A DNA stretch of 64,000 nt, from the NCBI GenBank assembly GCA_018267655.1, contig JAFDYB010000007.1, forward strand, positions 62,001-126,000, in the 5' to 3' direction. This DNA is from Bacteroidota bacterium (GTDB lineage Bacteria > Bacteroidota > Bacteroidia > B-17B0 > Aurantibacillaceae). The translations under genes were made by a program, and so were the position numbers. Below the pieces are notes generated by a model that was not told where the DNA came from, ran no database searches, and saw nothing but the letters and a program-made list of their open reading frames with translations. Positions 1 through 19,000 of the stretch are shown piece by piece; within the stretch, counting starts at the first letter, position 1, and each line of letters starts with the position of its first letter.

Positions 1-1
1 G

Positions 2-2275
2 AATAAGAACAGCGGCTTTTTAGAGATAGAAAATTTTGATGATTTTTTGTATCAACTATACGTTGGGAAAAAATTGAAAAATGAAGAAGTAGACAAAATA
101 GCCGAAGCACTTTTCGAGAAACGTCAACCATTTAAAGCAAAGCAGGCTACTCCGCAGTCCTTTGCCCCTTTAAAATTAAATTGCTTCAAAATTATTTCTA
201 TACCCAAAAATATTTATTCTTCACAAACGAAAATTAAAACTTGGAAGGAGTTAAATGCCTTTAAGGAAGGGAAAGACATGATTGTTGCTCCATCACGAGG
301 TAAAACATATTTCTTTGGTGATCTTGAAAAGATAAAAGGATATTGTAAGGAAATATTAGAAAAGGAAATCGAAATAGAAGACGTCAAAAATGAGTGGCTT
401 CGAAATGAAGATTCATTCTTTAAGAGTATGCTTTATGATTTAATCGAAGCAGCCCTCAAAGAAAAATTAGGATTAATCTGTACACGAAAGAAAAGTGGAA
501 CAAAGAAATTTTATTCTCCAAGTCATACCATTGCCACAGATAACAGTAACTACGTTACATTTGAAGCCATTGAAATTCAATTAAACTATTTAAACGATCA
601 ATTATGGATTAATCTTATGCCATGTGTTGAAGCGATTTCAAAAAGACAGCCGGAAAATCGCTTATCTAAGCAGGCTTTGGCAAACAAAATACTATCTCAA
701 CGATACAACCAACAATACAATGGAACTTTAAAATTTTGGAATGATTTGTTTACTCAGGCGTTTGGAAGTCCAATGGAATTAAAATATTTCGGGTTCTCTA
801 TACAGGTAAATGCCTTAAACGCCTTTGCAGGTGCAAAAATAAACGAGAAAATAACATCTTTTGAAGGAGCATTTAATTTAGTAGAACCAAAGCTGAAATT
901 CAATCTATCGGACAATAATTATTCTACAATTCACCCATTAAAAGGATTAAAGGATTTTTATCCTTTAGATTATTCTTTTACCACTGATCACAATCTTAAA
1001 AGCACATTAAAGCTTGCTATAATCAGCCCTGATGATAAGTTTGATTTGCTGATTAAACAATTGAATTTACTAAAATCAAATGTCCCAATTAAATCAGAGC
1101 GTGAGTACTTAATTGATTATCCGGGATTCGATACCGTTTATCAAAAGTATATTGATTTTCCAGTTAGCAGCACAAGTGAACTTTGTTCTCTTATAAAAAG
1201 TTCAGAAGTATCGAGCATGAATATTCAGCAGTTCTATGATTTGATAAAAAGGAAAATTGATTACTTCGATTCCATCAAGGGTGATTTCAATCTTATCATC
1301 TTATACATACCTAAAGCGTGGGAAAGATTCAGAGAACAAAAAACTGACAATTTTTATTTCGACTTGCACGATTCTGTTAAACTCTATTGCGCTAAAAAGC
1401 ACATCAAGGTTCAATTTATTGAAGAGAAATCCTTGAACTACTTTGATCAATCCAAAGTTCAATGGTGGTTATCACTCGGACTCTATACGAAGTCCAATGG
1501 AATCCCTTGGATGTTGGAAGCTTCTAACGATTCGTCCGCCTATGTTGGATTAGGATTTGCGATAAAGAAGACAGCGACTAAAAACAAAGTTGTTATGGGT
1601 TGTAGCCAAATTTTTGATTCAACTGGTCAAGGATTGCGATTTATGCTTCAGCCCTTAAACAATCCGGTTATTCGTGGGAAGAATCCATTTATGAGCAAAG
1701 AAGATGCACGGAGAATAATGTTGAAACTTCGTGAATCATATAATAGACTTGATACTAACGGCAAACTTGAAAAAATTGTAATACACAAAACAACATACTT
1801 TACAAGGGATGAGATGGAAGGAATTGGGCAAGCATTGGAAGGTGTTCCTCAAATTGAATTATTACAAATTCAAGAACTTCATTCATGGAGAGGAATTCAA
1901 GGTGCGTATGACGCAAGCGGTAAACCAATAATACACAGCTATCCAGTTAAGAGAGGAACGACAGTTCAACTTGACAATCATAGTTTTTTGCTTTGGACAC
2001 ATGGCAATGTAACGGATTCATCGTTAAACGGCGCAAATTATTATCAAGGAAAAAGAGGGATTCCTGCTCCGTTGTTAGTTAAAAGGTTCAGGGGATTTGA
2101 CAGTATAGAAACTACTGCAAATGAGATATTGAGTTTAACTAAAATGAATTGGAATGGTGGGGAACTTTACAAAAAAACACCTGTAACACTTGAGTTCTCA
2201 AAAAGATTGTCTCAAATGTCAAAACAAGATGAACAATTAAACAACACACCTTACGATTTTAGATTTTTTATATAA
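2..2275 (+). CDS. Long prokaryotic Argonaute (long-B-like, catalytically inactive), 5' truncated
   Basis: The frame is open to the left edge, so the N-terminus lies outside the window; the first in-window start-like codon is a TTG at 47 and is probably internal. The last ~330 residues look like MID plus PIWI: a MID segment with a HDSVK motif followed by a Q-containing strand, then WWLSLGLYTKSNGIPW, then the PIWI strands. The first catalytic Asp position reads YVGLGFA (Gly for Asp), the HRDG-like second site reads IHKTTY, and the C-terminal segment reads PVTLEFSKRLS without the usual His/Asp. It should therefore bind a guide and target without slicing, as known for long-B pAgos. It is joined to the downstream HsdR gene by a TAATG overlap, so co-translation is likely. 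Family confidence is high; the subclass and inactivity are inferred from motif reading. Confidence 0.85.
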   Translation, partial: NKNSGFLEIENFDDFLYQLYVGKKLKNEEVDKIAEALFEKRQPFKAKQATPQSFAPLKLNCFKIISIPKNIYSSQTKIKTWKELNAFKEGKDMIVAPSRGKTYFFGDLEKIKGYCKEILEKEIEIEDVKNEWLRNEDSFFKSMLYDLIEAALKEKLGLICTRKKSGTKKFYSPSHTIATDNSNYVTFEAIEIQLNYLNDQLWINLMPCVEAISKRQPENRLSKQALANKILSQRYNQQYNGTLKFWNDLFTQAFGSPMELKYFGFSIQVNALNAFAGAKINEKITSFEGAFNLVEPKLKFNLSDNNYSTIHPLKGLKDFYPLDYSFTTDHNLKSTLKLAIISPDDKFDLLIKQLNLLKSNVPIKSEREYLIDYPGFDTVYQKYIDFPVSSTSELCSLIKSSEVSSMNIQQFYDLIKRKIDYFDSIKGDFNLIILYIPKAWERFREQKTDNFYFDLHDSVKLYCAKKHIKVQFIEEKSLNYFDQSKVQWWLSLGLYTKSNGIPWMLEASNDSSAYVGLGFAIKKTATKNKVVMGCSQIFDSTGQGLRFMLQPLNNPVIRGKNPFMSKEDARRIMLKLRESYNRLDTNGKLEKIVIHKTTYFTRDEMEGIGQALEGVPQIELLQIQELHSWRGIQGAYDASGKPIIHSYPVKRGTTVQLDNHSFLLWTHGNVTDSSLNGANYYQGKRGIPAPLLVKRFRGFDSIETTANEILSLTKMNWNGGELYKKTPVTLEFSKRLSQMSKQDEQLNNTPYDFRFFI

Positions 2276-5200
2276 TGGGAAATTATCAAGAAATAAATGA
2301 TTCGCAAACTCCAGCGTTAAAGCTACTTCAAAAGCTTGGCTGGAAATATATATCTCCTGAAATGACAGAAGTTCAACGAGGCGGTATTTTAAGTAGCGTA
2401 TTATTAGAGGGAGTTTTAGAAGAGAGACTTAAAGAGATAAATAGCTTTGAGTACAAAGGCAGCAGTTATAAATTTTCTGAAGGTAACATTCATGCCGCCA
2501 TTCACACATTGAAGAATTTACCGGATGAAGGTTTAGTTAGAACTAATGAAAAAGCTTTTGATTTATTGACTCTTGGAAAAAGCTACGAAGAGACTATACA
2601 AGGTGATAAAAAAAGTTTCACCATTAAGTATATTGATTGGGTTAACATCGATAATAACGTCTTTCACATAACGGATGAGTATGTTGTTGAAGGGATAAAT
2701 GACACAAGAAGACCTGATTTAGTTCTTTTTGTAAATGGAATACCATTTTGCATTATTGAAAATAAACGAAGAGACAAAAATGCATCCATTGATGAAAGTA
2801 TTTCTCAGCACACTCGCAATCAGGGTAAGGAACAAGGGATACCAAAGTTGTTCTATTATAATCAATTGCTTTTAGCAGTACAACCAAATGAGTTAAAGTA
2901 TGGTGCTATTGATACAAAGCCAAAATTTTGGAGTTATTGGCAAGAGCCTGAAGATATTGAGGCTAAAGTAAAAAGCATTATTAATTCAACAATAAACGGT
3001 ATTCAGAAAGAAGACAGATTACCGACAGAACAGGATCGTGTCTTGTTCTCTCTATGTAGTATAGAGAGATTAATGGAGTTGGTTTTCAAATTTACTTTAT
3101 ACGATGGGGGTGTAAAGAAAATCACACGGTATCAACAGTTTTCTGCTGTTAAACATTCCATTCAAAGAATTAAGGAATTCACAAATGATGGGCAGAGAAA
3201 AGGTGGAGTGATTTGGCATACTCAAGGAAGTGGAAAATCATTAACTATGGTAATGCTTGCTAAAAGCATTGCATTAGAAAAGGAAGTTGTTAATGCTCGA
3301 ATTATTATAGTTACAGATAGAGTTGATTTAGACAAGCAAATATCTAATACTTTCCATTCATGCGGTAAAGAAGCTATTCGAGCTAAAAGTGGAAATCATT
3401 TAATTGAACTATTAAATGAGTCAGGTGTTGAAATCATCACAACGGTAATTGATAAGTTTGAAAGTGCATTGAATAGAAAGGATTTCAACAACGATTCATC
3501 AAACATTTTTGTTTTAGTTGATGAGAGTCACAGAAGTCAATACGGTTCTACGCATGCTAAAATGAAACGTGTATTACCTAAAGCTTGTTATATTGGCTTT
3601 ACCGGAACACCTTTGTTGAAAAAAGATAAGAGTACTGCTGACAAGTTTGGTGGCTTTATTGATAAATACACCATTAACCAAGCGGTAAAGGATAAGGCTG
3701 TCGTTCCGCTTCTATACGAAGGAAGATCAGCAAAGCTTACGGTTAATCAAGGACAGATTGATAGAGGCTTTGATCGTTTAGCAGAACCTTTAAACGAATA
3801 TCAAACAAAGGACTTAAAAAAGAAATTCTCGTCTATAACAGAGATATACAAATCGCAACAGGTAGTTGAGGAGATTGCTTTTGATATTTCTGAACACTTC
3901 TGTAAAAATGTAAAGGGAACAAAATTCAAAGCAATGTTGGCTGTTCCATTAAAAGCAACAGCCATGCAATATCAAAAGTATTTTGAAGATCAAACTAATC
4001 CTTCACTTAAAATCAACACGGCTGTTATCATCTCTGCACCTGATTCACGAGAAGATCATGAGGAGGTTGATGAAGAGCCAAATGACGAAGTACAAAAGTT
4101 TTGGAAACGTATTGTTACTAGAAATGGAACACCTGAGCAATACGAAGAATCTGTAATTCACAAATTCAAGCAAGATGATGATGAAGTTGAATTACTGATT
4201 GTCGTGAGTAAATTATTAACCGGATTTGATTCGCCAAACTGCGCTTATCTATACATAGCAAAACCATTAGCGGAACATAATTTATTGCAAGCGATTGCTC
4301 GTGTTAACCGATTAAAAGAAGGCAAAGACTTCGGTTTCATTATTGATTATGTCGGTATTCTTGGTCAACTTGATTCTGCATTAACTAAATACAGTGCCTT
4401 ACAGGAATTTGATGAAGAGGATTTAGTAGGTACGGTTGTAAATGTAACTGATGAAATTAAAAAGATCGGTCAGCGACACTCAGAACTTTGGGATGTGTTT
4501 AAAGAAGTTAAAAACAAAAAGGATATTGAAGCATTGGAGCGATTCCTTGCGCCAAAAGATATCCGAGATTTGTTCATTGAAAAGTTAACTGCATTTGCGA
4601 AGAACTTACAAGTTGCATTATCTACCGATGAGTTCTACAAACTTGTTGAAGAGAAACAAATCAAACATTATTTAGCAGATCTAAAATTCTTTCAAGGCTT
4701 GCGAGCTTCTATTTCATTGAGGTATGCGGATAAAATCAGTTATAAAGAATACGAATCACGAGTAAGAAAATTATTGGATACCTATATTGGAACAGAAGGT
4801 GTTGAGCAAATAACTGAATCCATTAATATTTTTGATGAGGAGTTATTTAAAAAAGAAGTTGAAAGAGTCACAGGCTCTGTGGCATCTAAAGCTGATGCAA
4901 TCGCTTATAAAATGAAAAAGGTTATAAGTGAGAAAATGGATGAAGACCCGGTGTTTTACAAAAAGTTCTCTCAATTGATTGATGAAACAATTAAGGCATT
5001 CCTTGACAAACGTTTAACTGAAGGGCAATATTTAGAAGCTATTCTGAAAAGCAGAGATAGTTTGGTAAAAGGATCATCTGATGGCACTCCTTCGGTGTTG
5101 AATGGAAAGCCTGAAGCAAGAGCTTTCTACGGAATATTAACTGAGAATATCTTGCCACCTAGTATTGAGCCAATACCAAGCAATATATTAGATTCCTTGG

Positions 5201-5406
5201 CGCAGATGGGAATTGAAATTAATGACATCATTCAAAGGCTTACTATTAGAGATTGGAAACGAAATGAAGATGTTCAGAAGCAAATGAAGAATGATTTGGA
5301 AGATTACCTTTTGGAAAAAAGACGAGATTTAGGCATAGAGATATCATTCACTCAAATTGACAATGTTTTGGAAGAAGTGTTGAAGGTGGCAAAACATAAA
5401 TTTTAA
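2275..5406 (+). CDS. hsdR: Type I restriction enzyme R subunit (HsdR), nuclease-helicase
   Basis: This is the DNA translocase and nuclease subunit of a type I restriction system. Domain order: an N-terminal HsdR nuclease with a PD-ExK pattern (D148 in RPDLV, E162 and K164 in ENK), then a superfamily 2 motor with Walker A GSGKS at about 318-322, a DESH Walker B, a GFTGTP motif III-like element and an ARVNR motif VI, then a helical C-terminus. At 1043 aa it is the normal length for the family. It starts on the last base of the Argonaute stop codon (TAATG) and overlaps the metallopeptidase gene the same way. No hsdM or hsdS is visible; they may lie left of the window or be absent. All motor and nuclease residues I can identify look intact. 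Confidence 0.93.
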   Translation: MGNYQEINDSQTPALKLLQKLGWKYISPEMTEVQRGGILSSVLLEGVLEERLKEINSFEYKGSSYKFSEGNIHAAIHTLKNLPDEGLVRTNEKAFDLLTLGKSYEETIQGDKKSFTIKYIDWVNIDNNVFHITDEYVVEGINDTRRPDLVLFVNGIPFCIIENKRRDKNASIDESISQHTRNQGKEQGIPKLFYYNQLLLAVQPNELKYGAIDTKPKFWSYWQEPEDIEAKVKSIINSTINGIQKEDRLPTEQDRVLFSLCSIERLMELVFKFTLYDGGVKKITRYQQFSAVKHSIQRIKEFTNDGQRKGGVIWHTQGSGKSLTMVMLAKSIALEKEVVNARIIIVTDRVDLDKQISNTFHSCGKEAIRAKSGNHLIELLNESGVEIITTVIDKFESALNRKDFNNDSSNIFVLVDESHRSQYGSTHAKMKRVLPKACYIGFTGTPLLKKDKSTADKFGGFIDKYTINQAVKDKAVVPLLYEGRSAKLTVNQGQIDRGFDRLAEPLNEYQTKDLKKKFSSITEIYKSQQVVEEIAFDISEHFCKNVKGTKFKAMLAVPLKATAMQYQKYFEDQTNPSLKINTAVIISAPDSREDHEEVDEEPNDEVQKFWKRIVTRNGTPEQYEESVIHKFKQDDDEVELLIVVSKLLTGFDSPNCAYLYIAKPLAEHNLLQAIARVNRLKEGKDFGFIIDYVGILGQLDSALTKYSALQEFDEEDLVGTVVNVTDEIKKIGQRHSELWDVFKEVKNKKDIEALERFLAPKDIRDLFIEKLTAFAKNLQVALSTDEFYKLVEEKQIKHYLADLKFFQGLRASISLRYADKISYKEYESRVRKLLDTYIGTEGVEQITESINIFDEELFKKEVERVTGSVASKADAIAYKMKKVISEKMDEDPVFYKKFSQLIDETIKAFLDKRLTEGQYLEAILKSRDSLVKGSSDGTPSVLNGKPEARAFYGILTENILPPSIEPIPSNILDSLAQMGIEINDIIQRLTIRDWKRNEDVQKQMKNDLEDYLLEKRRDLGIEISFTQIDNVLEEVLKVAKHKF

Positions 5407-6116
5407 TGGAAGAGTTTATTCAAGATTCAGAAGTTCAGTACGGAACAACAACTATAAAGTATAAGGTACATTTTAGTACTCGTAAAACATTAGGAATTGA
5501 GGTTCATCCTGATCAAACAATTAAGGTTGTTGCTCCAAACGGAGCTTCTCTTAAGCGCATTGCAGAAAAAGTAGAGAATAAAGCACCATGGATACAAAAG
5601 CAAGTTAGGAAGTTTAAAAAGATAGAGAAATTAGAACCAGCAAAGGAATATGTAAGCGGTGAAAATGTGTTCTATTTAGGCAGGCAATATCGCCTAAAGG
5701 TTATTAAAGGCGCTCAAAGTGTTAAATTGATCGGGAAGTATCTTAAACTAACAACACCTGACAAAGAAGATAAAAGATTGTCATCTGATTTGATTAATAA
5801 ATGGTACTCAGATCATGCTCAAATAAAATTAAACGAAAGGTTTGAGAAGTATAATTACATTCTAAAGCAAGAAAAGATCAAGTTTAATAAACTACAAATC
5901 AAATCAATAAATAAAAGATGGGGAAGTTGTACAAAACTTGGAACAATAACTTTAAATCCGGAATTAATAAAAGTTCCAGTTAACTGTATTGATTATGTGA
6001 TAATTCACGAAATCTGCCATCTTAAATACCTGAATCACAGTCCAAAATTTTTTCGACTTTTAGAAAAATATATACCTAATTGGCGATCTGTTCAAGAAAA
6101 ACTTAATATGTTTTAA
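5406..6116 (+). CDS. YgjP/DUF45-type M48-like metallopeptidase
   Basis: A 236-aa member of the YgjP-like metallopeptidase family, with the conserved RWGSC block at 171-175 and the zinc motif HEICH at 201-205, followed by the LNHSPKFF block that carries a third ligand. These small proteins commonly sit directly after hsdR in type I restriction loci, and their role there is not well defined. The start codon overlaps the hsdR stop (TAATG), making a coupled three-gene unit with the Argonaute. All metal ligands appear intact, unlike those of the ImmA-like protein downstream. Confidence 0.9.
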   Translation: MEEFIQDSEVQYGTTTIKYKVHFSTRKTLGIEVHPDQTIKVVAPNGASLKRIAEKVENKAPWIQKQVRKFKKIEKLEPAKEYVSGENVFYLGRQYRLKVIKGAQSVKLIGKYLKLTTPDKEDKRLSSDLINKWYSDHAQIKLNERFEKYNYILKQEKIKFNKLQIKSINKRWGSCTKLGTITLNPELIKVPVNCIDYVIIHEICHLKYLNHSPKFFRLLEKYIPNWRSVQEKLNMF

Positions 6117-6231: not shown

Positions 6232-7266
6232 ATGAATGCACTCAAATTGAATCCAAAAATGTTAACGGTTGCTCGTGAAAGCAGAGGACTAACTCAAGCT
6301 GAACTAGCAGAGAAACTTAACCTCTCGGCATCTAATGTTAGCCGAATGGAACAGGATTATATTGAGATAACTTCGTCAAATCTAAATTCGATAATTACTG
6401 TTTTAAATTACCCGGAGGAATTCTTCTATCAAGAAGGAGAAACCTTACCTCCTGCTCTTGCTTTGCGTAAGCGCAATATAGTAGCGCAGAAAATAATGGT
6501 TCCGATTGAGGCACAAGTAAACATCTATCGTTTAAACGTAGAAAAGCTTATTAAAGCAATTAATTATCCTGAGATTAGTTTACCTGTACTTGACATCGAG
6601 AAGTTAGGATCGCCTGCGGAAGCTGCACGTAAGCTGCGTAAGCTTTGGAAAATTGAAAAAGGTATTATCCCAAATCTGACACAAGTATTAGAAGAGAATG
6701 GTTTATTCGTAATCAACTTTGATTTTAATACCGACCGTGTAGATGGAATGAGCATTTTAGCGAATGGAAAATTCCCGATTATATTTTCTAATAAGAGAAG
6801 CCTTGGAGATCGTCAACGATTTACTTTGGCTTATGAATTAGGGCATTTAGTGATGCACCTGCAAACCAATCCATCCTTTACAAGAGATATTAGTCATGAA
6901 GCAAATGAGTTTGCTGCTGAATTTCTAATGCCGGAGAAGGATATCAAAGGAGATTTTAAAGATGGCGTAAATTTAAATGTCTTAGCAGATTTAAAACGCA
7001 AATGGAAACTCTCCATGCAAGCTCTACTTTACAGAGCAAATGATATCGGTGTAATTACCGACAATCAAAAAAGGTATTTGATTAATCTTTTTAACTCAAT
7101 GAACATCAGGAGAAGAGAGCCTTCGGAATTGGATATACCAAGAGAGAACCCCATGAAGTTGAGAGATTTGATTACCAATTACAAAAACAAACAAAGATTA
7201 AATGTAAAACAACTCGCTTTGTTTTTTAATTCAAGCGAAGATGAGTTTTTAAGTAAGTATTCTTAG
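6232..7266 (+). CDS. XRE-family regulator fused to ImmA/IrrE-like domain with degenerate zinc motif
   Basis: Residues about 8-65 form a Cro/C1-type helix-turn-helix (LTQAELAEKLNLSASNVSRME). Residues about 150-250 form an ImmA/IrrE (COG2856-type) metallopeptidase-like fold. The expected HExxH reads YELGH at 201-205, so the first zinc-binding His is Tyr, while the downstream HEANEFAAEFLMP block is kept. Such fusions control restriction systems, toxin-antitoxin units and integrative elements, often by cleaving or sensing a partner. Loss of the His suggests a regulator that binds rather than cleaves. It has its own promoter, 116 bp after the metallopeptidase gene, and is followed by a small HTH gene and a terminator. 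It may regulate the defence operon or the adjacent virus-like element. Confidence 0.88.
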   Translation: MNALKLNPKMLTVARESRGLTQAELAEKLNLSASNVSRMEQDYIEITSSNLNSIITVLNYPEEFFYQEGETLPPALALRKRNIVAQKIMVPIEAQVNIYRLNVEKLIKAINYPEISLPVLDIEKLGSPAEAARKLRKLWKIEKGIIPNLTQVLEENGLFVINFDFNTDRVDGMSILANGKFPIIFSNKRSLGDRQRFTLAYELGHLVMHLQTNPSFTRDISHEANEFAAEFLMPEKDIKGDFKDGVNLNVLADLKRKWKLSMQALLYRANDIGVITDNQKRYLINLFNSMNIRRREPSELDIPRENPMKLRDLITNYKNKQRLNVKQLALFFNSSEDEFLSKYS

Positions 7267-7986: not shown

Positions 7987-8538
7987 ATGACAGCAGTAAG
8001 AAAAATCAAAACAACATCAGCACCTTATTTAAGAGTAATAAAAGGTGGTAAATCAAGTCCAAAAAGCAACACCATTGAGAACACTTGGATTTTCATTCAC
8101 GCAGCATTGTGGTGCAATAAAGAGTTTACGAATAAAGAAGAAACACATTTTCAGAACTTAATCGCTGCACATTACACTACTGTAAAAAATCCAACAAAGG
8201 TTTTTGAAGAAATTATCGAGCGTGTATGTTTAGCAAAGCGCTATGTAAATAGAAAACGTGGACGCTATTTATCAAAACCAATTGATTGGCTAAACATTAA
8301 CTACCACAAAGGATTAGCCGGAACAGAAGGTTGGAATCAAGAAGTGTGTTTGCAACGCTTAAGCGTACCTGAATACAATAAAGGAATTACGCTACTTGCA
8401 AAATCAATAACCAAGTATCTGCAAGAGCCAACAATCAAAACGATTGTAGCAGTTCGCAAAAAACTAATTGCCCAAAAGCAATTTGATCTCCTTCAAATGT
8501 TCAACAACACAATAATCAATTTTCAAATCAATAAATAA
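7987..8538 (+). CDS. Hypothetical protein, first gene of the virus-like element
   Basis: 183 aa, basic, soluble and mostly helical, with no signal peptide or TM segment. I do not recognise the family. A central block (RKRGRYLSKPIDWLNINYHKG) is rich in basic and aromatic residues and could contact nucleic acid. It follows element promoter 1 and precedes a small HTH gene by 8 bp, which suggests an early or regulatory role rather than a structural one. It is separated from the long structural-like operon by the second promoter. Confidence 0.7.
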   Translation: MTAVRKIKTTSAPYLRVIKGGKSSPKSNTIENTWIFIHAALWCNKEFTNKEETHFQNLIAAHYTTVKNPTKVFEEIIERVCLAKRYVNRKRGRYLSKPIDWLNINYHKGLAGTEGWNQEVCLQRLSVPEYNKGITLLAKSITKYLQEPTIKTIVAVRKKLIAQKQFDLLQMFNNTIINFQINK

Positions 8539-8546
8539 AAAAGACT

Positions 8547-8756
8547 ATGGCAAAAACAGAAGTAAAATCAATCGAAGTGAGACCATACATGCCCGGTGAA
8601 TTGGCAAAACTGTATCAAGTAAGTCATCCAACAATTCTTCGATGGATCAAAGGTCTAGGAGACAAAGTTGGAAAACGTGACGGGCAATATTATACCACTA
8701 AGCAAGTAGAAATAATTTTTGAGGAGTTGGGATTACCAAAGACAATTTATTTCTAA
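8547..8756 (+). CDS. Small helix-turn-helix regulator (paralogue of 7295-7498)
   Basis: 69 aa with a MerR/excisionase-like HTH (GELAKLYQVSHPTILRWI) and a C-terminal YYTTKQVEIIFEELGLP segment. It is co-transcribed with the 183-aa protein, between the two element promoters, which fits an early regulator of the downstream operon. Similarity to the 67-aa protein before the terminator links the left module and this element. Confidence 0.75.
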   Translation: MAKTEVKSIEVRPYMPGELAKLYQVSHPTILRWIKGLGDKVGKRDGQYYTTKQVEIIFEELGLPKTIYF

Positions 8757-8815
8757 AAACAAATCAAATCATTTAAAAACCTCTCTAAACGATTTGATAC
8801 ATGAGCGATAAAGTG

Positions 8816-8848
8816 GAAAGCCACCCAAACCACCGCTGCACCTTTGTA
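8816..8848 (+). promoter_or_regulatory. Element promoter 2 (second copy of the 33-bp motif)
   Basis: The GAAAG...GCTGCACCTTTGTA block matches 7906-7938 at 26 of 33 positions, with the last 14 bases identical. It lies inside the longest possible reading frame of the next gene, which argues that the true start is downstream at 8888. It probably drives the whole 8888-18956 operon. Confidence 0.65.
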
Positions 8849-8887
8849 CTCGTGATGGATGAAATACTAACAACAAAAGAAAAAACG

Positions 8888-9082
8888 ATGTCAGAAATTA
8901 AACACAACCACCAAACGCAAGATGGAACAGGCAATATGCTTTTAACAGCAAGTATCCTGTTCGCAAACATTGATTACTCCGGTCTTGCAGACTATGCGAT
9001 AAAAGCCTTTGTAGGTGGTGCAATATGGATGGCTTTTAAAGTAGGCGGAGAGTATTTAAGTAACAAGATCAAGAAGAAGTAA
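8888..9082 (+). CDS. Small membrane protein (64 aa), start of the structural-like operon
   Basis: The frame could begin at 8801 or 8855, but element promoter 2 (8816-8848) overlaps that part, so ATG 8888, preceded by AAAGAAAAAACG, is the better start. The product has a polar N-terminus, hydrophobic stretches (LLTASILFANIDYSGLADY, then AIKAFVGGAIWMAFKVGG) and a Lys-rich tail. Function unknown. It abuts the next ATG directly after its stop. A small virion or inner-membrane protein is plausible from the context. Confidence 0.65.
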   Translation: MSEIKHNHQTQDGTGNMLLTASILFANIDYSGLADYAIKAFVGGAIWMAFKVGGEYLSNKIKKK

Positions 9083-9598
9083 ATGGCAAGCATTAAAAAA
9101 ATATTGTTGGGTCTAGGCATAGGAGGAGGCTTGGTAGCAGGTGGAACATATCTGTGGAGATTAAATAAGACCTCAGTTAACTTGGAAGTAGTTCCAACAG
9201 TTAAGCTGCACAAGTTGGATTTGCAAGGATTGGTGTTGAGAGTTGATGTGCAATTGAAAAATCCAACTCGCACGAGTTTAAAACTCAAGTTCCCTTTTAT
9301 CAAACTATTGATTAAGGGAAGCAGCATCGGAAGTTCACAGTCGGTTAATCAAGACATCGCACTTCCTGCTTTCGGTGAGGCAAAGTTCGAAGCAATAATG
9401 ATTCGGATTCCAATGTTCAGCCTCCTCTCTACTGCCAAAAGCTTACTACAAGCGGTACAAAATGGAGAAGCCTTTAAGATTGGTGTAACGACCATGACAA
9501 CAATTGACTTGGGACTTAAAAAAGTTCCCTATGAAAAAACAGATGAAGTACAATTAATTGGAGCGCAAAATGGAAGCAACAAAAAAACGGAAGATTAG
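9083..9598 (+). CDS. LEA2/WHy-like membrane-anchored protein of the virus-like element
   Basis: 171 aa: an N-terminal hydrophobic anchor at about 4-23 (KILLGLGIGGGLVAGGTYLW), then a beta-rich domain with the pattern of LEA type 2/WHy proteins, including a VQLKNPTRTSLKLKFP block and a following I-G-S-S segment. LEA2 domains are small beta-sandwiches often found next to membranes. The host has its own LEA2 lipoprotein at 48007-48462 with the equivalent IKNPN block, so this could be a captured host domain. Its 3' end overlaps the next gene by 29 bp. The family call is by pattern only; a role as a virion membrane protein is inferred. Confidence 0.6.
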   Translation: MASIKKILLGLGIGGGLVAGGTYLWRLNKTSVNLEVVPTVKLHKLDLQGLVLRVDVQLKNPTRTSLKLKFPFIKLLIKGSSIGSSQSVNQDIALPAFGEAKFEAIMIRIPMFSLLSTAKSLLQAVQNGEAFKIGVTTMTTIDLGLKKVPYEKTDEVQLIGAQNGSNKKTED

Positions 9599-11207
9599 AA
9601 GCGGAGATGAATACGACCACTTGTTTCCAAAGCCTTTGTTCCTTGATCCAACAATTAAAAAAGGTGCAACAGTAAATGACACAGTCCGATTTATTCCGCA
9701 AGTAGTGCGAGAAACTTTGTCTCAAACTTCAAAGTTAGCTCCACTTCTTAAAGGAAGTAATGTGTACGAGACCTGCAAGAACATTTGGGAATTTGTTTAT
9801 CACCACATCGCTTACAAAAAAGATGAAGATGGTAAAGAACAAATCAGAAGCCCGGCAAGAGGATGGCACGACAGGTTTCATGGGATAGATTGCGATTGTT
9901 ACACGGTGTTTATCAGCAGTATATTGAGCAACTTAAAAATTAAGCACAAACTGAGAATCACAAAATACAGCCAAGATCACTTTCAGCACATCTATCCAAT
10001 AGTGCCGACAACAGGAGGAAATTACATCACGGTCGATTGTGTGGTAGACCGATTCAATTACGAAGAACCATACACAGAAAAACAAGACACAAAAATGGAA
10101 TTAGAATATTTAAATGGCGTACCCAGCACAAACAGCGTAGATGTGCAAGACCTAATGGGTTGGGAAGAGTTAGAAGGTGGCGATCTCGGTAAAATTAAAC
10201 TCTTCAAAAAAATGAGTCAGCCACCGGGAAGTGAAGGCGATACTTCAAAAAAAGGAAAATTAAAAAACCTTTTGCATAAAGGTCTGCATATCACCAACCG
10301 ATTGAACCCTGCTACAACCTTGATTCGTGAAGGAGTTTTAATCAGTATGAAACTCAATCTCTTCAAAGTTGCTCAACGCCTCAAGTATGCGTACTTGAGT
10401 GAAGATGAAGCAAGAAAAAAAGAGATGGACATGGACAAGTTTGCCAAGCTGAAAAAGATAAAGGAAAAATTAGAAAAGATTTTTTACGATGCGGGGGGTA
10501 AGCCTGAGAATTTGAAAAAAGCAATTCTAACAGGAAAAGGAAATTCAAAAGGCAAGCACGATGTAAACGGACTTGGATACATTATCGATGACATGAGTGG
10601 CATGGATGAGAATACACCATCAAGCACTTTGTTAGGAGTTGAAATGTACGAGAGCGAAGGCTTTGGAGAATTAGGTTCAGCAACCGCAGCAGCAGCTTCA
10701 ATCACAGCAGCAACAGGATTCATCGGAGCGATTGCAGGATTACTAAAAGGAATCGGAAACATGTTCCCTAAAAAAAGTAAAGAGGGAGCAGACTTTGAAA
10801 ATCCTGAATCAACACCTGGCGATGGAACATCAACCGCAGAAGTTTCTCAAAATGCAGGGAATGTAAAAATCACAAACAGCGATGATGGTAGTTCAACTAC
10901 ATCAAGCAGTTCAGATGATGCAGGAAGTAAAAAAGCAATGATGAAAACTAGCGGTGGCTCATCCGATAGCAGCGACACTTCTGATCCTGACAAACCACAA
11001 GGCTTTTGGGACAAGAACAAAAAATGGATCAAGCCAACAGCAATTGGATTAACAGGATTAGGATTGGTTTTCCTTGGAGTAAAGATGATGAACAAACCAA
11101 AACCACCTGCGCCACAGCCGGCTTTAACAGGAGTTAATCACAGAAAGAAAAAAAAGAAAGGAGGACGTAAGGGCAAGAAGAAAAAGCAAGCAGTAGCATA
11201 CATGTAA
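9570..11207 (+). CDS. Transglutaminase-like protein with two C-terminal hydrophobic segments
   Basis: The frame extends to a TTG at 9558, but ATG 9570 is preferred. Residues about 60-165 show a transglutaminase/papain-like order: Cys in GIDCDCYTVF (C108/C110), His in HFQHIYP (H140) and Asp in TVDCVVD (D156). After a charged helical region comes an Ala/Gly-rich hydrophobic segment (about 360-395), a Ser/Asp/Thr-rich low-complexity linker, a TM helix (WIKPTAIGLTGLGLVFLGV) and a Lys-rich tail. The enzyme could cleave or cross-link proteins, for example capsid or cell wall components. It is the largest protein of this operon segment and overlaps its upstream neighbour. The fold assignment is from motif order only. 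Confidence 0.6.
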   Translation: MEATKKRKIRSGDEYDHLFPKPLFLDPTIKKGATVNDTVRFIPQVVRETLSQTSKLAPLLKGSNVYETCKNIWEFVYHHIAYKKDEDGKEQIRSPARGWHDRFHGIDCDCYTVFISSILSNLKIKHKLRITKYSQDHFQHIYPIVPTTGGNYITVDCVVDRFNYEEPYTEKQDTKMELEYLNGVPSTNSVDVQDLMGWEELEGGDLGKIKLFKKMSQPPGSEGDTSKKGKLKNLLHKGLHITNRLNPATTLIREGVLISMKLNLFKVAQRLKYAYLSEDEARKKEMDMDKFAKLKKIKEKLEKIFYDAGGKPENLKKAILTGKGNSKGKHDVNGLGYIIDDMSGMDENTPSSTLLGVEMYESEGFGELGSATAAAASITAATGFIGAIAGLLKGIGNMFPKKSKEGADFENPESTPGDGTSTAEVSQNAGNVKITNSDDGSSTTSSSSDDAGSKKAMMKTSGGSSDSSDTSDPDKPQGFWDKNKKWIKPTAIGLTGLGLVFLGVKMMNKPKPPAPQPALTGVNHRKKKKKGGRKGKKKKQAVAYM

Positions 11208-11236
11208 ACAGAAACAAACGATTAAAGAAAAGAGAA

Positions 11237-11824
11237 ATGGCAAAGAGTAAAAACAGTTATCAAAAAGCAGCGCAGAAAAAAGCACTTAGCGGAACAGGCG
11301 ATGCAAGCACCGGAGAGAAAATGAAGGATGCAGCAACCGAGTTGGGAAAAGACATCGTGGTTGGAGTGATTGGTGGCGGAGTTGCAGGTGCTGCATTAGG
11401 GCGATTGTCCTTCCTTGTTGGCGCAGCAGTTTCAGGAGTTGGTCACTTCGCTAAAAGCAGATTAGCATCGGCACTCGGATTAGGCATGATGGCTTCCGGT
11501 ACTTACCAAACAGTATCCGGCATGAACGGAAAACCTGCTGAGGGATTAGAAGGAGTTAAAGAAAGATTACTCGCATTGAAAGATGATATGAAGAAGAGAG
11601 TCTTCCTTGACAAAGTGCTGAAAGCAAAAGCTCCCAAAACCGAAGAGAACGGAACCAACGGACTAGGTCAAGTGCAATACTTCGTGTATCCGAATAGCGA
11701 AGAGTCAATGGGCGAATTGGATATGAGTGCCTTGGATAAATTTCATGAGCAAATTCAAAACCACGCCACCAATGGACTGAACGGAGAAATGGAAATGGTA
11801 GAACCATCAGAAAAAATCTACTAA
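11237..11824 (+). CDS. Membrane protein of the virus-like element
   Basis: 195 aa with two small-residue-rich hydrophobic segments, about 38-58 (VVGVIGGGVAGAALGRLSFL) and 62-90 (AAVSGVGHFAKSRLASALGLGMMA), between a basic N-terminus and an acidic C-terminus ending in a Glu/Met-rich stretch. No family recognised. Gly/Ala-rich double-hydrophobic proteins of this kind occur among inner-membrane proteins of lipid-containing phages, which fits the neighbouring genes. It sits 29 bp after the transglutaminase-like gene and 63 bp before the candidate capsid gene. Confidence 0.65.
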   Translation: MAKSKNSYQKAAQKKALSGTGDASTGEKMKDAATELGKDIVVGVIGGGVAGAALGRLSFLVGAAVSGVGHFAKSRLASALGLGMMASGTYQTVSGMNGKPAEGLEGVKERLLALKDDMKKRVFLDKVLKAKAPKTEENGTNGLGQVQYFVYPNSEESMGELDMSALDKFHEQIQNHATNGLNGEMEMVEPSEKIY

Positions 11825-11887
11825 ACAAAATCATACATCCATCACACAAAAAAATAAACAGAAGTTAAATTTTAAAAACAAAAAATC

Positions 11888-12607
11888 ATGTTAGAATTAT
11901 TAGACGGAACAGAAGAGTACAACAATGCCGGAGCATTACTAGGATTAGATGGTGCAGAAGGAGAAGAACTGTTGGGGGCATTACGCAGAATGAATCCGAT
12001 TGCTCGCCAAAGAACCATTAACAAATTGGCGAGTCCAGGAGTTTCGAGCAAAGGCTCTCGTGCAGAAATGGAAAAGCACTTCCGTGAGTTACCTGCTCAC
12101 ATCAGAACTGCACTAGCAAAAGGAGAATTGCGTTTGGCAGACACCATCATCTACTCCATCAAACCTGTGAATTCAAAAACCATCAAGTTGTTTGAAACAC
12201 AAGATGTAAAAGAAGTTGGTTTGAGAAATATCAGCAATGCGAAGTTGCCAAAGAACCAAGCCTTATTGGTAAGCGGTATCTTCTTATTGGCATCCATTCC
12301 GGCAGATAACACACCGGATAAAGTAATGGGGTCGAAGTTTGGACAATTGGAAGACTTCCCTGCCATCGCAAGCGGAGAGTTCAGCTTAAAAGCGAACAAA
12401 AAAGTGATCATCCCTGAAACAAGCATTGCAGCTTTCAAAACAAGCAACATGCACAGCTTACCATTAGGTTATTACAAATTAGCGAACCCACGCTTAATTC
12501 ATGATGACATCTTGGTTGAGTTTACAGTTGACTTGGGCTCAATGGAAGGACTTGATCCAAAGACCCAATTGTATGTTGGTTTACACGGAACAATCACAAC
12601 TCCTTAA
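11888..12607 (+). CDS. Candidate major capsid protein (beta-rich, 239 aa)
   Basis: A soluble, beta-rich protein with no TM. After a helical N-terminus containing LLGALRRMNPIARQRTINKL, the rest alternates short strands (TIKLFETQD, NQALLVSGIFLLAS, ILVEFTVDL) with loops, as expected for a jelly-roll or other beta-sandwich. It is the only gene in the operon followed at once by a strong hairpin, a layout often seen after highly expressed capsid genes, and it has its own 63-bp leader. I do not recognise the family. The capsid call rests on position, composition and context; an abundant non-capsid virion protein remains possible. Confidence 0.45.
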   Translation: MLELLDGTEEYNNAGALLGLDGAEGEELLGALRRMNPIARQRTINKLASPGVSSKGSRAEMEKHFRELPAHIRTALAKGELRLADTIIYSIKPVNSKTIKLFETQDVKEVGLRNISNAKLPKNQALLVSGIFLLASIPADNTPDKVMGSKFGQLEDFPAIASGEFSLKANKKVIIPETSIAAFKTSNMHSLPLGYYKLANPRLIHDDILVEFTVDLGSMEGLDPKTQLYVGLHGTITTP

Positions 12608-12620
12608 TCATTAACCAATA

Positions 12621-12646
12621 GTCGGGAGAGCAATCTCCCGGCTTTT
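12621..12646 (+). terminator. Intra-operon hairpin after the candidate capsid gene
   Basis: Stem GTCGGGAGA (12621-12629) / TCTCCCGGC (12634-12642), with one G-T pair, loop GCAA, then TTTT. It lies between two same-strand genes of the operon, so it probably acts as a partial terminator or mRNA-end stabiliser. Confidence 0.8.
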
Positions 12647-12659
12647 AAAAAACAATACC

Positions 12660-13043
12660 ATGTTAAAAGCAACAAAGAAAAGATTTGACATAAAGATTAC
12701 TCAGGCGAACTCTACTGTGAGTGACACCTTTGAACTCGACAAGAACATTGTGAAAGTGCATGGTGTGTTGGTTACATCGGATAAGGACGATTTACTGTAT
12801 TACAGAGGCACTCAAAAAATCGAAATCAACAAGGAGGAATTCTTTCCTGAAAACTACGAGAGTAAGTTGTTGATGTCAGGAATCAATGTAGCACCGAAAC
12901 AACGCTACTATGATTTGGGTGGTGTTGCACCGGGCAACGGAAGGGTTCAAATCACCTATAAAGATTTGGACGATGGCAGAACAGCCTTTGTGCCTTACAG
13001 AGTGAGTTTGTATTTAGACTGTGAAATGGAGGATGAGTTATGA
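12660..13043 (+). CDS. Small beta-rich protein, possible minor capsid/jelly-roll protein
   Basis: 127 aa, soluble, predicted mostly strands: DTFELDKNIVKVHGVLVTS near the N-terminus and VPYRVSLYLDCEME at the end. The same arrangement (an FxL strand leading to a V-x-G-I/V strand, and a C-terminal Y-x-V-x-x-Y strand) recurs in the next gene product, so the pair may be related beta-sandwich virion proteins. It lies after the intra-operon hairpin and overlaps the next gene by 4 bp (ATGA). No family recognised. Confidence 0.6.
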   Translation: MLKATKKRFDIKITQANSTVSDTFELDKNIVKVHGVLVTSDKDDLLYYRGTQKIEINKEEFFPENYESKLLMSGINVAPKQRYYDLGGVAPGNGRVQITYKDLDDGRTAFVPYRVSLYLDCEMEDEL

Positions 13044-13591
13044 TGAAGGAAGGAGTTATAATCACTAAGATCAATATCAAGCGACAAGGAGAAAGGAAGC
13101 ACTTTCAAATAAAACTTCCGAACGACACAAAGTACATCATTGGTATTGAGTATGGAGGAAGATTGGTAAGCAAGGGTGATATAAAGGCTACGGATGCTTT
13201 ACCACACGCAATTGCAAAGAGCGAAGTAGCATTAGTAGAAACGCCTTATGTAAAAGCAGAGTATGTTGAAGTAAAAGAAAAAGCAAGAACCTTTTTTAAA
13301 AGAAATCAATTAGTCGGAGAGTTGAAATTACAAAGTAGTGAAGAGTCAAATTGGTTTTATTCAGCGGATGTTTTTTTGAACGACAGCAATATTGGTCTTG
13401 GTGATTTCTCTCAATCCGGATTTCCTGTAAATGATTTTACACACGGCAACAAAAGAACAGAAGAGATTGTGAAGGTAGATGCTGAGTCAACAATTATTCA
13501 GGGATGGTATTTAGATGCCATTGGCAAAACACAAAAAACTGATATCAATTATGAAGTAACCATCTATGTATGGATTAATGTGGAGGAATAG
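13040..13591 (+). CDS. Beta-rich hypothetical protein, possible second minor capsid protein
   Basis: 183 aa, soluble and strand-rich (FQIKLPNDTKYIIGIEYGG near the start, YEVTIYVWINVEE at the end). Its outline resembles the preceding 127-aa protein and it is coupled to it by an ATGA overlap. The middle has an ESNWFYSADVFLND segment. Two or three neighbouring single jelly-roll proteins would fit a tailless icosahedral virus, but this cannot be settled from sequence reading alone. Confidence 0.55.
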   Translation: MMKEGVIITKINIKRQGERKHFQIKLPNDTKYIIGIEYGGRLVSKGDIKATDALPHAIAKSEVALVETPYVKAEYVEVKEKARTFFKRNQLVGELKLQSSEESNWFYSADVFLNDSNIGLGDFSQSGFPVNDFTHGNKRTEEIVKVDAESTIIQGWYLDAIGKTQKTDINYEVTIYVWINVEE

Positions 13592-13594
13592 AAA

Positions 13595-13927
13595 ATGACA
13601 ATAAATCTCGCTTTAGAATACATCCCACGAAGGATGCAGGAGTTAGGATACAAGGCAGATTACTTTATCCGATTCCGACACTTGGTCTTACAACCAAACG
13701 AAGAGCAAATCATTGATGCTTTTAACCAATTCTATTACCTCGTTGAAGAAGCCGAAAACGTGAGAGTTGAAAGTGAAACAGGAATATTCGACTTGAGTGA
13801 AAGCAGCACCAATGAAATGCAATACGAACACCAAAGTAAAATACAGATCACAAATTATTTATCCGGTATTAATCATTTGCGATTTATTCAAGTAATACCA
13901 AAACACAAAATAAAAAAGAAAAGATAA
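13595..13927 (+). CDS. Hypothetical protein of the virus-like element (110 aa)
   Basis: A soluble protein with a LEYIPRRMQELGY start and a basic KHKIKKKR tail. No TM, signal or known domain seen. It starts 3 bp after the previous stop and its stop overlaps the next start by 1 bp (TAATG), so it is co-translated with the structural-like genes. Function unknown. Confidence 0.65.
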   Translation: MTINLALEYIPRRMQELGYKADYFIRFRHLVLQPNEEQIIDAFNQFYYLVEEAENVRVESETGIFDLSESSTNEMQYEHQSKIQITNYLSGINHLRFIQVIPKHKIKKKR

Positions 13928-14790
13928 TGCAACAAACAAATCCATATAACGATGTGAAGCTATCGCAATTTAAAATGTGGCTTCACGACATGGCTACTAA
14001 AGGCGAAGAGAAACATTTTGAAGTGTACGTGAACGATGTAAAAGTTGTGCCACGCACCAATAAGATTGAGCAGATGGATGACCACAAGGCTTATCTAGAA
14101 GATACAACTGAAACGGTAAAAGTATTTGTATATAACACCGAGAACTCAAACCGCTACATCCAGTTCATCTTCTTCATTGAAAAGAAAAAGCCTATTGAAC
14201 ATGTTGAAGCTATCCATGCACCACAGCAACCACAAGGCTTGTCAGGAATTGAGCTGGAGAACAGAATCAACGAGCGATTAACTGCTGCCTTGGCTCAAGA
14301 GAGAGAACGCTGGCAAAATGATTTGATGAAACGTGAGTTTGAAACCTGCAAAAAGGACTTAGCAGATGCAGAAGAATACATCGAAGATTTGGAAAAGCAA
14401 CTGAGCCAATACAAAAGCAAAAAGTTGCATTGGGGCGATGTTAACCTTGGCGATGTAGCCTCTGTCATTGTCGAAGGAATGGTTAAACGAAATCCGCATT
14501 GGGTTGCCAAATTACCCGGTGGAGATGCACTTGCCGGATTGATAGCAACTGAAACAACAACTGAAAACGGAACAGCAGAAGTAGTAGAAAATGAAGTGGT
14601 GTTCAAAAAGAAAACACCTGCCGACGATGGTCTGTCTGAAGAAGTAAAAGCGCAGCTTGGTTTCTTAAAACAATTGGAGACACATTTCAATCAGGAACAA
14701 CTCGACAAGATTATGCTCATCCTGCAGTCCTTTGTGGAAACACCAAAAAACATCGAAACAGTATTTGAACTATTAGAAATCAAAAAGTAA
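13927..14790 (+). CDS. Coiled-coil protein of the virus-like element
   Basis: 287 aa. The N-terminal ~90 residues are a beta-rich domain (HFEVYVNDVKVVPR, TVKVFVYNTEN). Residues about 100-165 form a charged coiled coil (ERERWQNDLMKREFETC, AEEYIEDLEKQLSQY). A helical C-terminal part ends in an LxxLETHFNQEQLDKIM segment. It could be an assembly, spike or scaffolding-type protein. The start overlaps the previous stop by 1 bp and the next gene begins 1 bp after its stop. Family unknown. Confidence 0.65.
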   Translation: MQQTNPYNDVKLSQFKMWLHDMATKGEEKHFEVYVNDVKVVPRTNKIEQMDDHKAYLEDTTETVKVFVYNTENSNRYIQFIFFIEKKKPIEHVEAIHAPQQPQGLSGIELENRINERLTAALAQERERWQNDLMKREFETCKKDLADAEEYIEDLEKQLSQYKSKKLHWGDVNLGDVASVIVEGMVKRNPHWVAKLPGGDALAGLIATETTTENGTAEVVENEVVFKKKTPADDGLSEEVKAQLGFLKQLETHFNQEQLDKIMLILQSFVETPKNIETVFELLEIKK

Positions 14791-14791
14791 A

Positions 14792-14974
14792 ATGAAAAAG
14801 TTTAGTTACGACCTAACCATTGAAGCGGCTACTGAAGCAGAAGCCGACTCAAAAATGAGTGCCATAGGCACTTTATTAAAAAAGCTAACGACTAAGGAGT
14901 TTCTAAAACTTGCCGACATCGTTAAAAATGATCCCGTAAAAACCGCATTAGCAAAAAAAGCATTAGGAGTTTAA
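14792..14974 (+). CDS. Small conserved-looking protein (60 aa)
   Basis: A helical, Ala/Lys-rich 60-aa protein (LTIEAATEAEADSKMSAIGT, then LLKKLTTKEFLKLADIVKND). It is packed with 1-bp gaps between the coiled-coil gene and the annexin-like gene, which supports it being real. No TM or known motif. Confidence 0.6.
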   Translation: MKKFSYDLTIEAATEAEADSKMSAIGTLLKKLTTKEFLKLADIVKNDPVKTALAKKALGV

Positions 14975-14975
14975 A

Positions 14976-15653
14976 ATGAAAAAAGATACCACCAATAATG
15001 ATTTAACCCTGAAGGAGAAAATCCTTTACTCCCTGATTGGATTAGGGATCGTGGGAGGTGGTGTTTTCTTTGGGAGAAAACTTGTTTTGAAGAGTGTCGC
15101 TAACCGTGAAGAGAAAAAATCTTTTGAAGATGGTACTCCGGCAACCTATGCCAAACAAATAAAGATGGCATTTGAAAATGATGGATGGTGGGGAACGGAT
15201 ACCGAAAAATTAAGAAGCACGTTGCGAGAAATTCCAAGCAAACAAGTTTTTGCAAAAGTTCAAGAGTCCTACAAAAAACTCTACAACTCAAATCTCATCA
15301 CCGATATGAGCGATGAGTTACAAACGACCGAGTACAATGAGATGCTTCAAATCATCGGACAGAAACCGGATAAAACAGGCGGTAAACCACAAATAACAGG
15401 TTACAGCTATGTGGGTTGGGCAAAGAGATTAAAAGCAGCCTTTGATAAAAGCTACGGCTTTTTACCCGGTACAGATGAAGATGCTATCAAAGCTGTATTC
15501 AATGAACTGCCAACACAAAAGGCATTCATAGCAACCGGAGTCGCTTATAAAAAGCTTTATGGAAGTGATTTAACAAGCGACTTAAAAGGAGAATTGGAGA
15601 TGTGGGAAATAAACGACTACATGAAAATAATACTATCAAAACCAAAGGGATAA
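14976..15653 (+). CDS. Membrane-anchored protein with two annexin-like repeats
   Basis: 225 aa. One N-terminal TM helix at about 16-34 (LYSLIGLGIVGGGVFFG) is followed by two ~70-residue repeats (about 57-126 and 144-222). They share AK..K.AF, a GTD motif, EIP/ELP with KQVFAK or QKAFIA, YKKLY.S.L..D, EL and M.II. This is the annexin repeat layout: helix A, GTD[E] calcium loop, helices B to E, with acidic residues about 40 positions after the GTD. Annexins bind acidic phospholipids through calcium, so this protein could link a lipid membrane to another virion layer. Bacterial annexins are known but rare. It is coupled to the next gene by a TAATG overlap. Annexin homology is a pattern call; the internal duplication is directly visible. 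Confidence 0.6.
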   Translation: MKKDTTNNDLTLKEKILYSLIGLGIVGGGVFFGRKLVLKSVANREEKKSFEDGTPATYAKQIKMAFENDGWWGTDTEKLRSTLREIPSKQVFAKVQESYKKLYNSNLITDMSDELQTTEYNEMLQIIGQKPDKTGGKPQITGYSYVGWAKRLKAAFDKSYGFLPGTDEDAIKAVFNELPTQKAFIATGVAYKKLYGSDLTSDLKGELEMWEINDYMKIILSKPKG

Positions 15654-16267
15654 TGGAAAACAAAACACACAATAAAAGAAAAACAATCCTGATTGGACTA
15701 GGCGTATTAGGGACTGGAGTCGCAGGTTTCTTAGGATGGAACTATTGGAAAAACAAAAAGAAAGCAAATCAGGAAGAAGATACAAGTTCCTTCACAGAAA
15801 CTGCAAACACAACAACTGCTGCTTCAAGAAACGATGACTTTCCATTGAAGAGAGGAAGTAAAGGAAGCCGAGTAACACTATTGCAAAACGCTTTAGTAAA
15901 AAAATACGGTGCAGGCATACTGCCAAAATATGGAGTGGATGGAATGTTCGGAAAAGAAGTGGAAGCAGCTTTAGTAAAAGCAAAAATGCCGACCACAATC
16001 AACGAAGCAAACTATAGCAAAATTGTAGGTGGCGGTTTAAGTGGCTTAATCAAATACGGAGAAGAAGTGATCTCCATCGAAGAGTGCGAGATCTTCAAAG
16101 TAGAAGGTAAACTCAAAATGAAGATTCCCAAGCACATCATTCTTGGAGTTAAAGAGTTCACGCATCAAGGTTGGATTTATTTCATTCCTAAAAACAGCAC
16201 GGAACTATTCAGGGTAAGAAAAGAACAAGTAAAATCTCTAAAGCAATTTAAAAATGAAAAATCTTAG
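15653..16267 (+). CDS. Membrane-anchored peptidoglycan-binding protein
   Basis: The frame opens at 15602, but ATG 15653, which overlaps the previous stop as TAATG, is the better start and gives 204 aa. It has an N-terminal TM helix (ILIGLGVLGTGVAGFLGWNYW) and a PG_binding_1-like domain at about 60-105 (LKRGSKGSRVTLLQNAL, then YGVDGMFGKEVEAAL). The C-terminus has a beta-rich FKVEGKLKMKIP domain. It probably anchors a membrane or virion to the cell wall, and lies just before two cell-wall enzymes. Confidence 0.75.
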   Translation: MENKTHNKRKTILIGLGVLGTGVAGFLGWNYWKNKKKANQEEDTSSFTETANTTTAASRNDDFPLKRGSKGSRVTLLQNALVKKYGAGILPKYGVDGMFGKEVEAALVKAKMPTTINEANYSKIVGGGLSGLIKYGEEVISIEECEIFKVEGKLKMKIPKHIILGVKEFTHQGWIYFIPKNSTELFRVRKEQVKSLKQFKNEKS

Positions 16268-16700
16268 AAACATAAAATATATCGTGGTTCATTGCACAGC
16301 CACTCCTCCAACAACAACTGTGGAGTCAATCAAACGCTATTGGAAAGAGCAACGTGGATGGGGAGATACTCCCGGCTACCATTATCTAATCCAACGACAA
16401 GGGAATATCCTTCAGCTATTAGATGAAAGTAAAAACAGCAACGGAGTTTATTTACACAACTCGAACTGTATCAATATCGCTTACATCGGTGGCGTTGACA
16501 AGGACAACAAACCTGTCGACAACAGAAGCGATGCTCAAAAACATTCCATGTTTGATTTGATTGTTTCTCTTACTGAGAAATATCCGCAGGCAGAAGTGTT
16601 AGGACACCGTGACTTTCCGGATGTACACAAAGCTTGCCCTTGCTTTGATGTAAAGACATGGTTGAAGGAGTATGAACCCGACTTAGGCAACGCTGCATAA
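16254..16700 (+). CDS. N-acetylmuramoyl-L-alanine amidase (Amidase_2 type)
   Basis: 148 aa, a typical T7-lysozyme-like amidase: KYIVVHCTATPP near the N-terminus (zinc His), PGYHYLIQRQG, and VLGHRDFPDVHKACPCFDV at the end (zinc His and Cys). It cleaves the amide bond between muramic acid and the stem peptide. It lacks a signal peptide, so release would need a holin; a small holin-like protein is encoded 0.7 kb downstream. It overlaps the upstream gene by 14 bp and the next by 1 bp. Likely the endolysin or an entry enzyme of the element. Confidence 0.92.
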   Translation: MKNLRNIKYIVVHCTATPPTTTVESIKRYWKEQRGWGDTPGYHYLIQRQGNILQLLDESKNSNGVYLHNSNCINIAYIGGVDKDNKPVDNRSDAQKHSMFDLIVSLTEKYPQAEVLGHRDFPDVHKACPCFDVKTWLKEYEPDLGNAA

Positions 16701-17610: not shown

Positions 17611-17632
17611 TTAATTAAAACAAAAGATAAAT

Positions 17633-18411: not shown

Positions 18412-18413
18412 TT

Positions 18414-18956: not shown

Positions 18957-18961
18957 AAATC

Positions 18962-18990
18962 AAAGAGCCTCTTTCGGGAGGCTCTTTATT
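18962..18990 (+). terminator. Rho-independent terminator of the structural-like operon
   Basis: Perfect 10-bp stem AAAGAGCCTC (18962-18971) / GAGGCTCTTT (18978-18987) with a 6-nt loop, ending in a T-rich tract, 5 bp after the stop codon. Confidence 0.92.
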
Positions 18991-19000
18991 CCTTTTTTAA

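Follow-up and report, generated by a model that had tools for sequence, protein, structure and literature searches.

The window, that is the whole 64,000-nucleotide stretch analysed here (G000:C79:62001-126000), opens inside a prokaryotic Argonaute (pAgo) gene. Its extension to the left (L001, C79:47001-67000; the window coordinate is the L001 coordinate minus 15000) and the window together show an operon in the order half-hsdS, hsdM, hsdS, Schlafen/AlbA_2, SIR2-APAZ-pAgo, hsdR and YgjP (Table 1). The supposition in the initial annotation that hsdM and hsdS lie just left of the window, with the pAgo inside a type I restriction-modification (R-M) operon, is thus borne out. The Ago gene starts 833 bases left of the first base, at window position -832, and the window carries the last 757 of its 1,035 residues.

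Table 1. Features of the operon in L001 and window coordinates
Feature	L001	Window	Strand	Basis
Half-HsdS, one target-recognition domain, 189 aa	9984-10553	-5016..-4447	+	left extension
HsdM	10550-12070	-4450..-2930	+	Pfam
HsdS	12070-13290	-2930..-1710	+	Pfam
SLFN_AlbA_2 (Schlafen/AlbA_2)	13292-14167	-1708..-833	+	left extension
SIR2-APAZ-MID-PIWI fusion (SPARSA-type short pAgo), 1,035 aa	14168-17275	1..2275 (part in window)	+	PADLOC, PDB, AlphaFold/Foldseek
HsdR, type I restriction motor-nuclease		2275..5406	+	Pfam domains, motifs
YgjP-like metallopeptidase, HEICH motif		5406..6116	+	PF01863, 201 bits
TAATG overlap, Ago stop/hsdR start		2273..2277	+	sequence
TAATG overlap, hsdR stop/YgjP start		5404..5408	+	sequence

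From the half-hsdS to YgjP, each gene either shares a few bases with the next or lies within one base of it, and both TAATG junctions claimed in the initial annotation are exact in the sequence. Stop/start overlaps are frequent in operons and are by themselves weak evidence; the strong evidence for the arrangement is its recurrence in other genomes, not these overlaps. The sole promoter match, a weak one of the Bacteroidota type (TTTG-N20-TACATTTG, L001:9932-9963), ends 20 bases before the half-hsdS, and this pattern is expected by chance about 1.5 times per 20 kb. Scans for sigma-70-type promoters gave no signal above chance. The operon genes are presumably transcribed jointly.

The full-length Ago is covered from residue 4 to 1035 by the PADLOC model SIR2-PNTD1-PNTD2 (SIR2-APAZ-pAgo; PDLC02420) with 1,272 bits. 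SIR2_2 is its sole Pfam match, and a search of the genome with the Pfam Piwi model gave no match; that model is blind to this short pAgo. The closest solved structures, by phmmer against PDB and by Foldseek, are those of SPARSA. In the phmmer comparison the SPARSA pAgo (8in8 and others) matches residues 571-1035 with an E value of 7e-68 and the SPARSA Sir2 subunit matches with 1e-36. An AlphaFold model built from 34 homologues (mean pLDDT 85) resembles the SPARSA pAgo with a TMt of 0.91 and the SIR2-APAZ chain with a TMt of 0.65 over 608 columns. The NADase activity of GsSir2 depends on the dyad N142/H186 (PMC10781750), which aligns with N144/H187 in the present protein; both residues are invariant across the 34-homologue alignment, and the catalytic Asn-His dyad of the SIR2 domain is thus intact. 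An APAZ region lies between SIR2 and MID, as seen both in the full-length PADLOC match and in the predicted structure, and the Ago part consists of MID-PIWI without the N-PAZ half of long pAgos. By sequence and model, the protein is therefore a one-polypeptide SPARSA, a SIR2-APAZ-short-pAgo fusion with its own predicted NADase effector.

This differs from the initial annotation, which had classified the pAgo as long-B, a type built as N-PAZ-MID-PIWI with a separate effector gene, and had proposed HsdR as the effector of an inactive Ago. Neither the long N-PAZ-MID-PIWI architecture nor the need for a separate effector is found here, and this candidate was abandoned once the protein was read beyond the window edge. 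The effector had escaped the first reading because the edge cut off the SIR2 part, and the idea of an inactive Ago in need of HsdR falls because the protein carries an effector of its own.

The type I system itself looks complete because the motifs of HsdM and HsdR are kept (PD..ENK, GSGKS, DESH, NPPF and DPACGSG). HsdR has the Pfam domains HSDR_N, SWI2_SNF2, T1R_D3-like and T1RH-like_C with intact PD-(D/E)XK, GSGKS and DESH motifs, and the domain matches agree with the earlier identification of hsdR followed by a YgjP-type metallopeptidase. With HsdM and HsdS complete, HsdR has its usual partners. A half-HsdS of about 180-220 amino acids with one target-recognition domain precedes hsdM, besides a full hsdS, in 15 of 20 related operons (L154, L157-L159, L161-L166, L168-L170, L172 and L173); as a dimer, this conserved protein perhaps provides a second specificity.

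Next to groEL, a large serine recombinase ORF (L001:5540-7210, minus strand) runs across a tRNA-Leu (L001:5614-5698, plus strand). Among the congeners listed, similarity around groEL ends with that gene, and the tRNA matches at another place; an island or a rearrangement therefore seems to begin here. The other end of such an island was not found. A 16-base repeat of the tRNA region is absent within 96 kb, and the groEL-tRNA link is missing from the congeners listed, so that the tRNA-Leu is at most a candidate island end. To the right, 115 bases after the operon, an XRE-HTH and M78 (ImmA/IrrE-like) protein with a PADLOC RmrA match (window 6232-7266) may have a regulatory role or belong to defence in its own right. 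A block of small co-directional genes follows (window 7987-19873), with an amidase (phrog_822) and a protein whose first residues point to a Dam-like methylase. This block looks like a prophage or mobile element; a PHROG match was absent for eight of ten proteins tested from window 7987-22062.

A scan of 84,980 species genomes yielded 293 relatives of the Ago, and the best 80 of these, mostly fused proteins or fragments, were fetched with their surroundings. ORFs were called, and HMMs for HsdM/S/R, YgjP and others were built from the fetched loci. Including the present locus, type I hsd genes were found in the co-directional run of the Ago in 15 of 81 loci, a rough figure because many contigs end near the Ago and because the sample was made up of the nearest 80 homologues instead of being random. 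In five further loci of this set the Ago lies beside other restriction-type genes. More than three quarters of the best 80 homologues have no detected R-M gene in the operon, partly owing to contig ends. Strong hsdM or hsdR matches occur in the flanks of 18 loci and lie on the Ago strand in all 18; when near-copies are counted once (about 14 loci), random orientation is unlikely (2 x 0.5^14, about 1e-4).

The relatives are found behind or inside several type I arrangements, near Hma-like, type III-like or Eco57I-like genes, or as split pairs on plasmids. The order is hsdM-hsdS-Ago-hsdR in L109, a metagenome bin that bears the label Methanobrevibacter and may be mis-binned, and also in L110, with a transposase gene in between. 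Other type I orders are hsdM-Ago-hsdS-...-hsdR (L101), half-hsdS-hsdM-x-x-Ago-hsdS-x-hsdR-YgjP (L112), hsdM-hsdS-hsdR-Ago (L074) and hsdR-hsdM-hsdS-Ago (L058); in most type I cases elsewhere, hsdR does not directly follow the Ago. The neighbour is an Eco57I-type methylase in L046, a Hma-like helicase/DUF1156/DUF499 set in L047 and, assigned through DNA 86-89% identical to L047, in L048, and ResIII genes in L057 and L064, which are called type III-like on the basis of that gene only. A split SIR2-APAZ and pAgo pair is likewise embedded (L035), and related split pairs stand alone on plasmids without adjoining R-M genes. The initial annotation held that its proposal would fall if no other genome kept the adjacency. 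Comparable embeddings do exist, but a conserved trio of pAgo, hsdR and YgjP does not: YgjP goes with this hsdR scaffold, and a YgjP match was found in only 3 of the 93 loci compared. A fixed partnership of SIR2-Ago with AlbA_2 was rejected as well, since an HMM derived from the AlbA_2 protein matched only itself among the 93 loci; the Schlafen domain nevertheless recurs among the cargo genes described below.

On a quick tree of 68 fused Agos, in which some branches are long, the five cases of an Ago embedded between hsd genes require as many separate changes, each of them forced by starred branches, and flanking type I cases require eight, of which six are forced. Exchange between systems is seen at closer range. 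Across the type I loci L051 and L066 and the ResIII locus L057, the Ago DNA is 92-96% identical. The match of the two type I loci to L057 sets in 6-8 bases ahead of the Ago start codon; the genes further upstream are different. The Ago has therefore joined different R-M systems while hardly changing. G743, from the same genus and with the gene order of L058, has an Ago of 45% identity, which there follows another type I system.

Direct repeats of roughly 130-150 bases, forming an imperfect hairpin with attC-like AAC...GTT ends, were observed 3' of the Ago in several Bacteroidota loci (L066:13320-13494 and 15311-15460; L057:13340-13480; likewise L051, L053, L058/L187, L059 and L189). In L109 such repeats lie near 4260 and 15240, on either side of the hsdM-hsdS-Ago-hsdR unit. 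The hairpins suggested integron cassettes, a candidate that was rejected because no integron integrase scored above the curated cut-off in any of the 12 genomes tested.

The operons with the 20 closest hsdR genes, taken from hsdR relatives in the same class, show what the scaffold is like without the Ago, which is present in none of them. YgjP is the last gene, after hsdR, in 19 of the 20 and is therefore part of the R-M scaffold, not of a trio with the Ago. Other genes lie between hsdM/hsdS and hsdR in all 18 related operons with hsdM or hsdS in view. Seventy of these cargo proteins were matched to families such as DUF3800, calcineurin-like phosphoesterase, RhuM, Fic, RecG-C HATPase, Schlafen AlbA_2, SMODS/CBASS, Pycsar effector, patatin and kinases, and the cargo of the Ago-less operons also matches many PADLOC candidates. 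The present locus thus has a co-directional foreign defence gene between hsd genes, and operon relatives that do without it. A conserved scaffold holds the Ago as one cargo among many, and its AlbA_2 neighbour is probably another cargo gene.

SPARSA (GsSir2/Ago; PDB 8in8, 8jkz and 8k87) shares the domains and the catalytic Asn-His dyad with the present protein, which differs in being one polypeptide instead of two, in its embedding in a type I R-M operon and in its identity of about 30% to the solved pAgo. The present protein has the architecture of the fused SIR2-APAZ short pAgos surveyed by Ryazansky et al. 2018 (PMC6299218), who listed HsdS and Schlafen AlbA_2 among pAgo-operon proteins and found DNA-binding proteins in 33% of fused-group operons; embedding between hsd genes, repeated origin and exchange between R-M types are absent from that survey. 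A statistical link of pAgo genes to phage-defence genes, R-M included, was reported by Makarova et al. 2009.

Embedding of defence modules in type I loci is already established for DarTG2, TgvAB and PrrC. The RRDM island, RptR-hsdM-hsdS-DarTG2-hsdR-M48 (PMC12255303), likewise has a defence module between hsdS and hsdR and an M48 peptidase behind hsdR, but it carries a toxin-antitoxin system in place of the Argonaute, and a RptR regulator stands in front where the present operon has a half-HsdS. TgvAB, which is embedded in the type I locus of VPI-2 in Vibrio cholerae, differs in being a GmrSD-like, modification-dependent restriction system. It protects without HsdR nuclease activity, though more weakly alone than the whole cluster does (PMC11411939). 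PrrC in EcoprrI is a suicide effector within a type I locus, as SIR2-Ago is predicted to be; PrrC senses inhibition of its R-M enzyme, a dependence that is a feature of PrrC and for SIR2-Ago a proposal only. Among the openly accessible journal papers searched, none was found that places a SPARSA inside a type I operon.

The explanation we consider probable is that the type I operon has a defence cargo slot that co-expresses an autonomous SPARSA-like NADase as a back-up, and not an effector HsdR steered by the Ago. In this reading the operon is a complete type I system with two cargo genes, the Schlafen/AlbA_2 gene and the SIR2-APAZ-short-pAgo, in a slot that separates hsdS from hsdR. HsdM/S/R would first restrict unmethylated incoming DNA. 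If invader DNA persisted and was transcribed, SIR2-Ago would load a small RNA guide and recognise complementary invader DNA, whereupon the SIR2 domain would hydrolyse NAD+ and the infected cell would be arrested or killed. RNA guide, DNA target and NAD+ depletion are taken over from characterised SPARSA and may apply here by analogy. The operon would give shared expression and joint inheritance, so that a cell receives the restriction barrier and its abortive back-up in one step, and the Ago would need no physical dependence on HsdR. Most likely the embedded Ago serves as a suicidal defence that backs up restriction, the two presumably acting in layers. The plasmid-borne two-gene relatives without R-M neighbours and, by analogy, the TgvAB experiments argue for autonomy of the Ago. 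The weaker protection by TgvAB alone suggests that operon context can matter all the same, and the recurrent choice of several R-M types exceeds what a neutral slot needs, which makes a functional link to restriction possible.

The main rival is a guard or circuit role. SIR2-Ago would be kept next to R-M genes in order to react to phages that block, evade or overwhelm restriction, in the manner of PrrC in EcoprrI, or because DNA processed by the R-M system supplies guides or targets. The repeated association with several R-M types, the exchange of an almost unchanged Ago and the PrrC precedent speak for this, but most fetched homologues lack a detected R-M gene (with the reservation about contig ends), the plasmid relatives stand alone and the slot also houses many unrelated systems, and we regard it as unlikely. 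The same low expectation attaches to a single circuit in which the trigger for RNA-guided NAD+ depletion comes from, or is licensed by, DNA that the R-M enzyme has processed or left unprotected, or blockage of that enzyme. Such a circuit could work with R-M systems of every type and would then account for near-identical Agos after type I operons in some genomes and after a type III-like gene in another.

It is quite improbable that the Ago and AlbA_2 genes merely hitch-hike in a recombination-prone slot with no role tied to the operon. The many unrelated genes in the slot, the resemblance of the hairpin repeats after several Ago genes to recombination points, and the nearby tRNA-Leu and large serine recombinase would fit, but strong hsd matches near the Ago are always co-directional, the cargo is rich in anti-phage families and internal embedding arose several times. 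Least credible is the dedicated pairing of the initial annotation, a guide-bound Ago that directs or licenses the HsdR translocase-nuclease: translational coupling of the two genes is in its favour, but the Ago brings a SIR2 effector of its own, the dyad of which is intact, HsdR has its complete HsdM and HsdS partners, the 20 related hsdR operons do without an Ago, and the relatives have varied R-M neighbours with the Ago mostly not immediately before hsdR.

With the defence cargo slot as the preferred reading, a predicted RNA-guided NADase of the Argonaute family joins the modules carried as cargo in type I operons, and such embedding has happened repeatedly and beside several R-M types. Whether programmable abortive infection is coupled to restriction or only lodged in the operon with it thereby becomes a testable question. 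The finding also makes type I operons a practical hunting ground for new defence genes.
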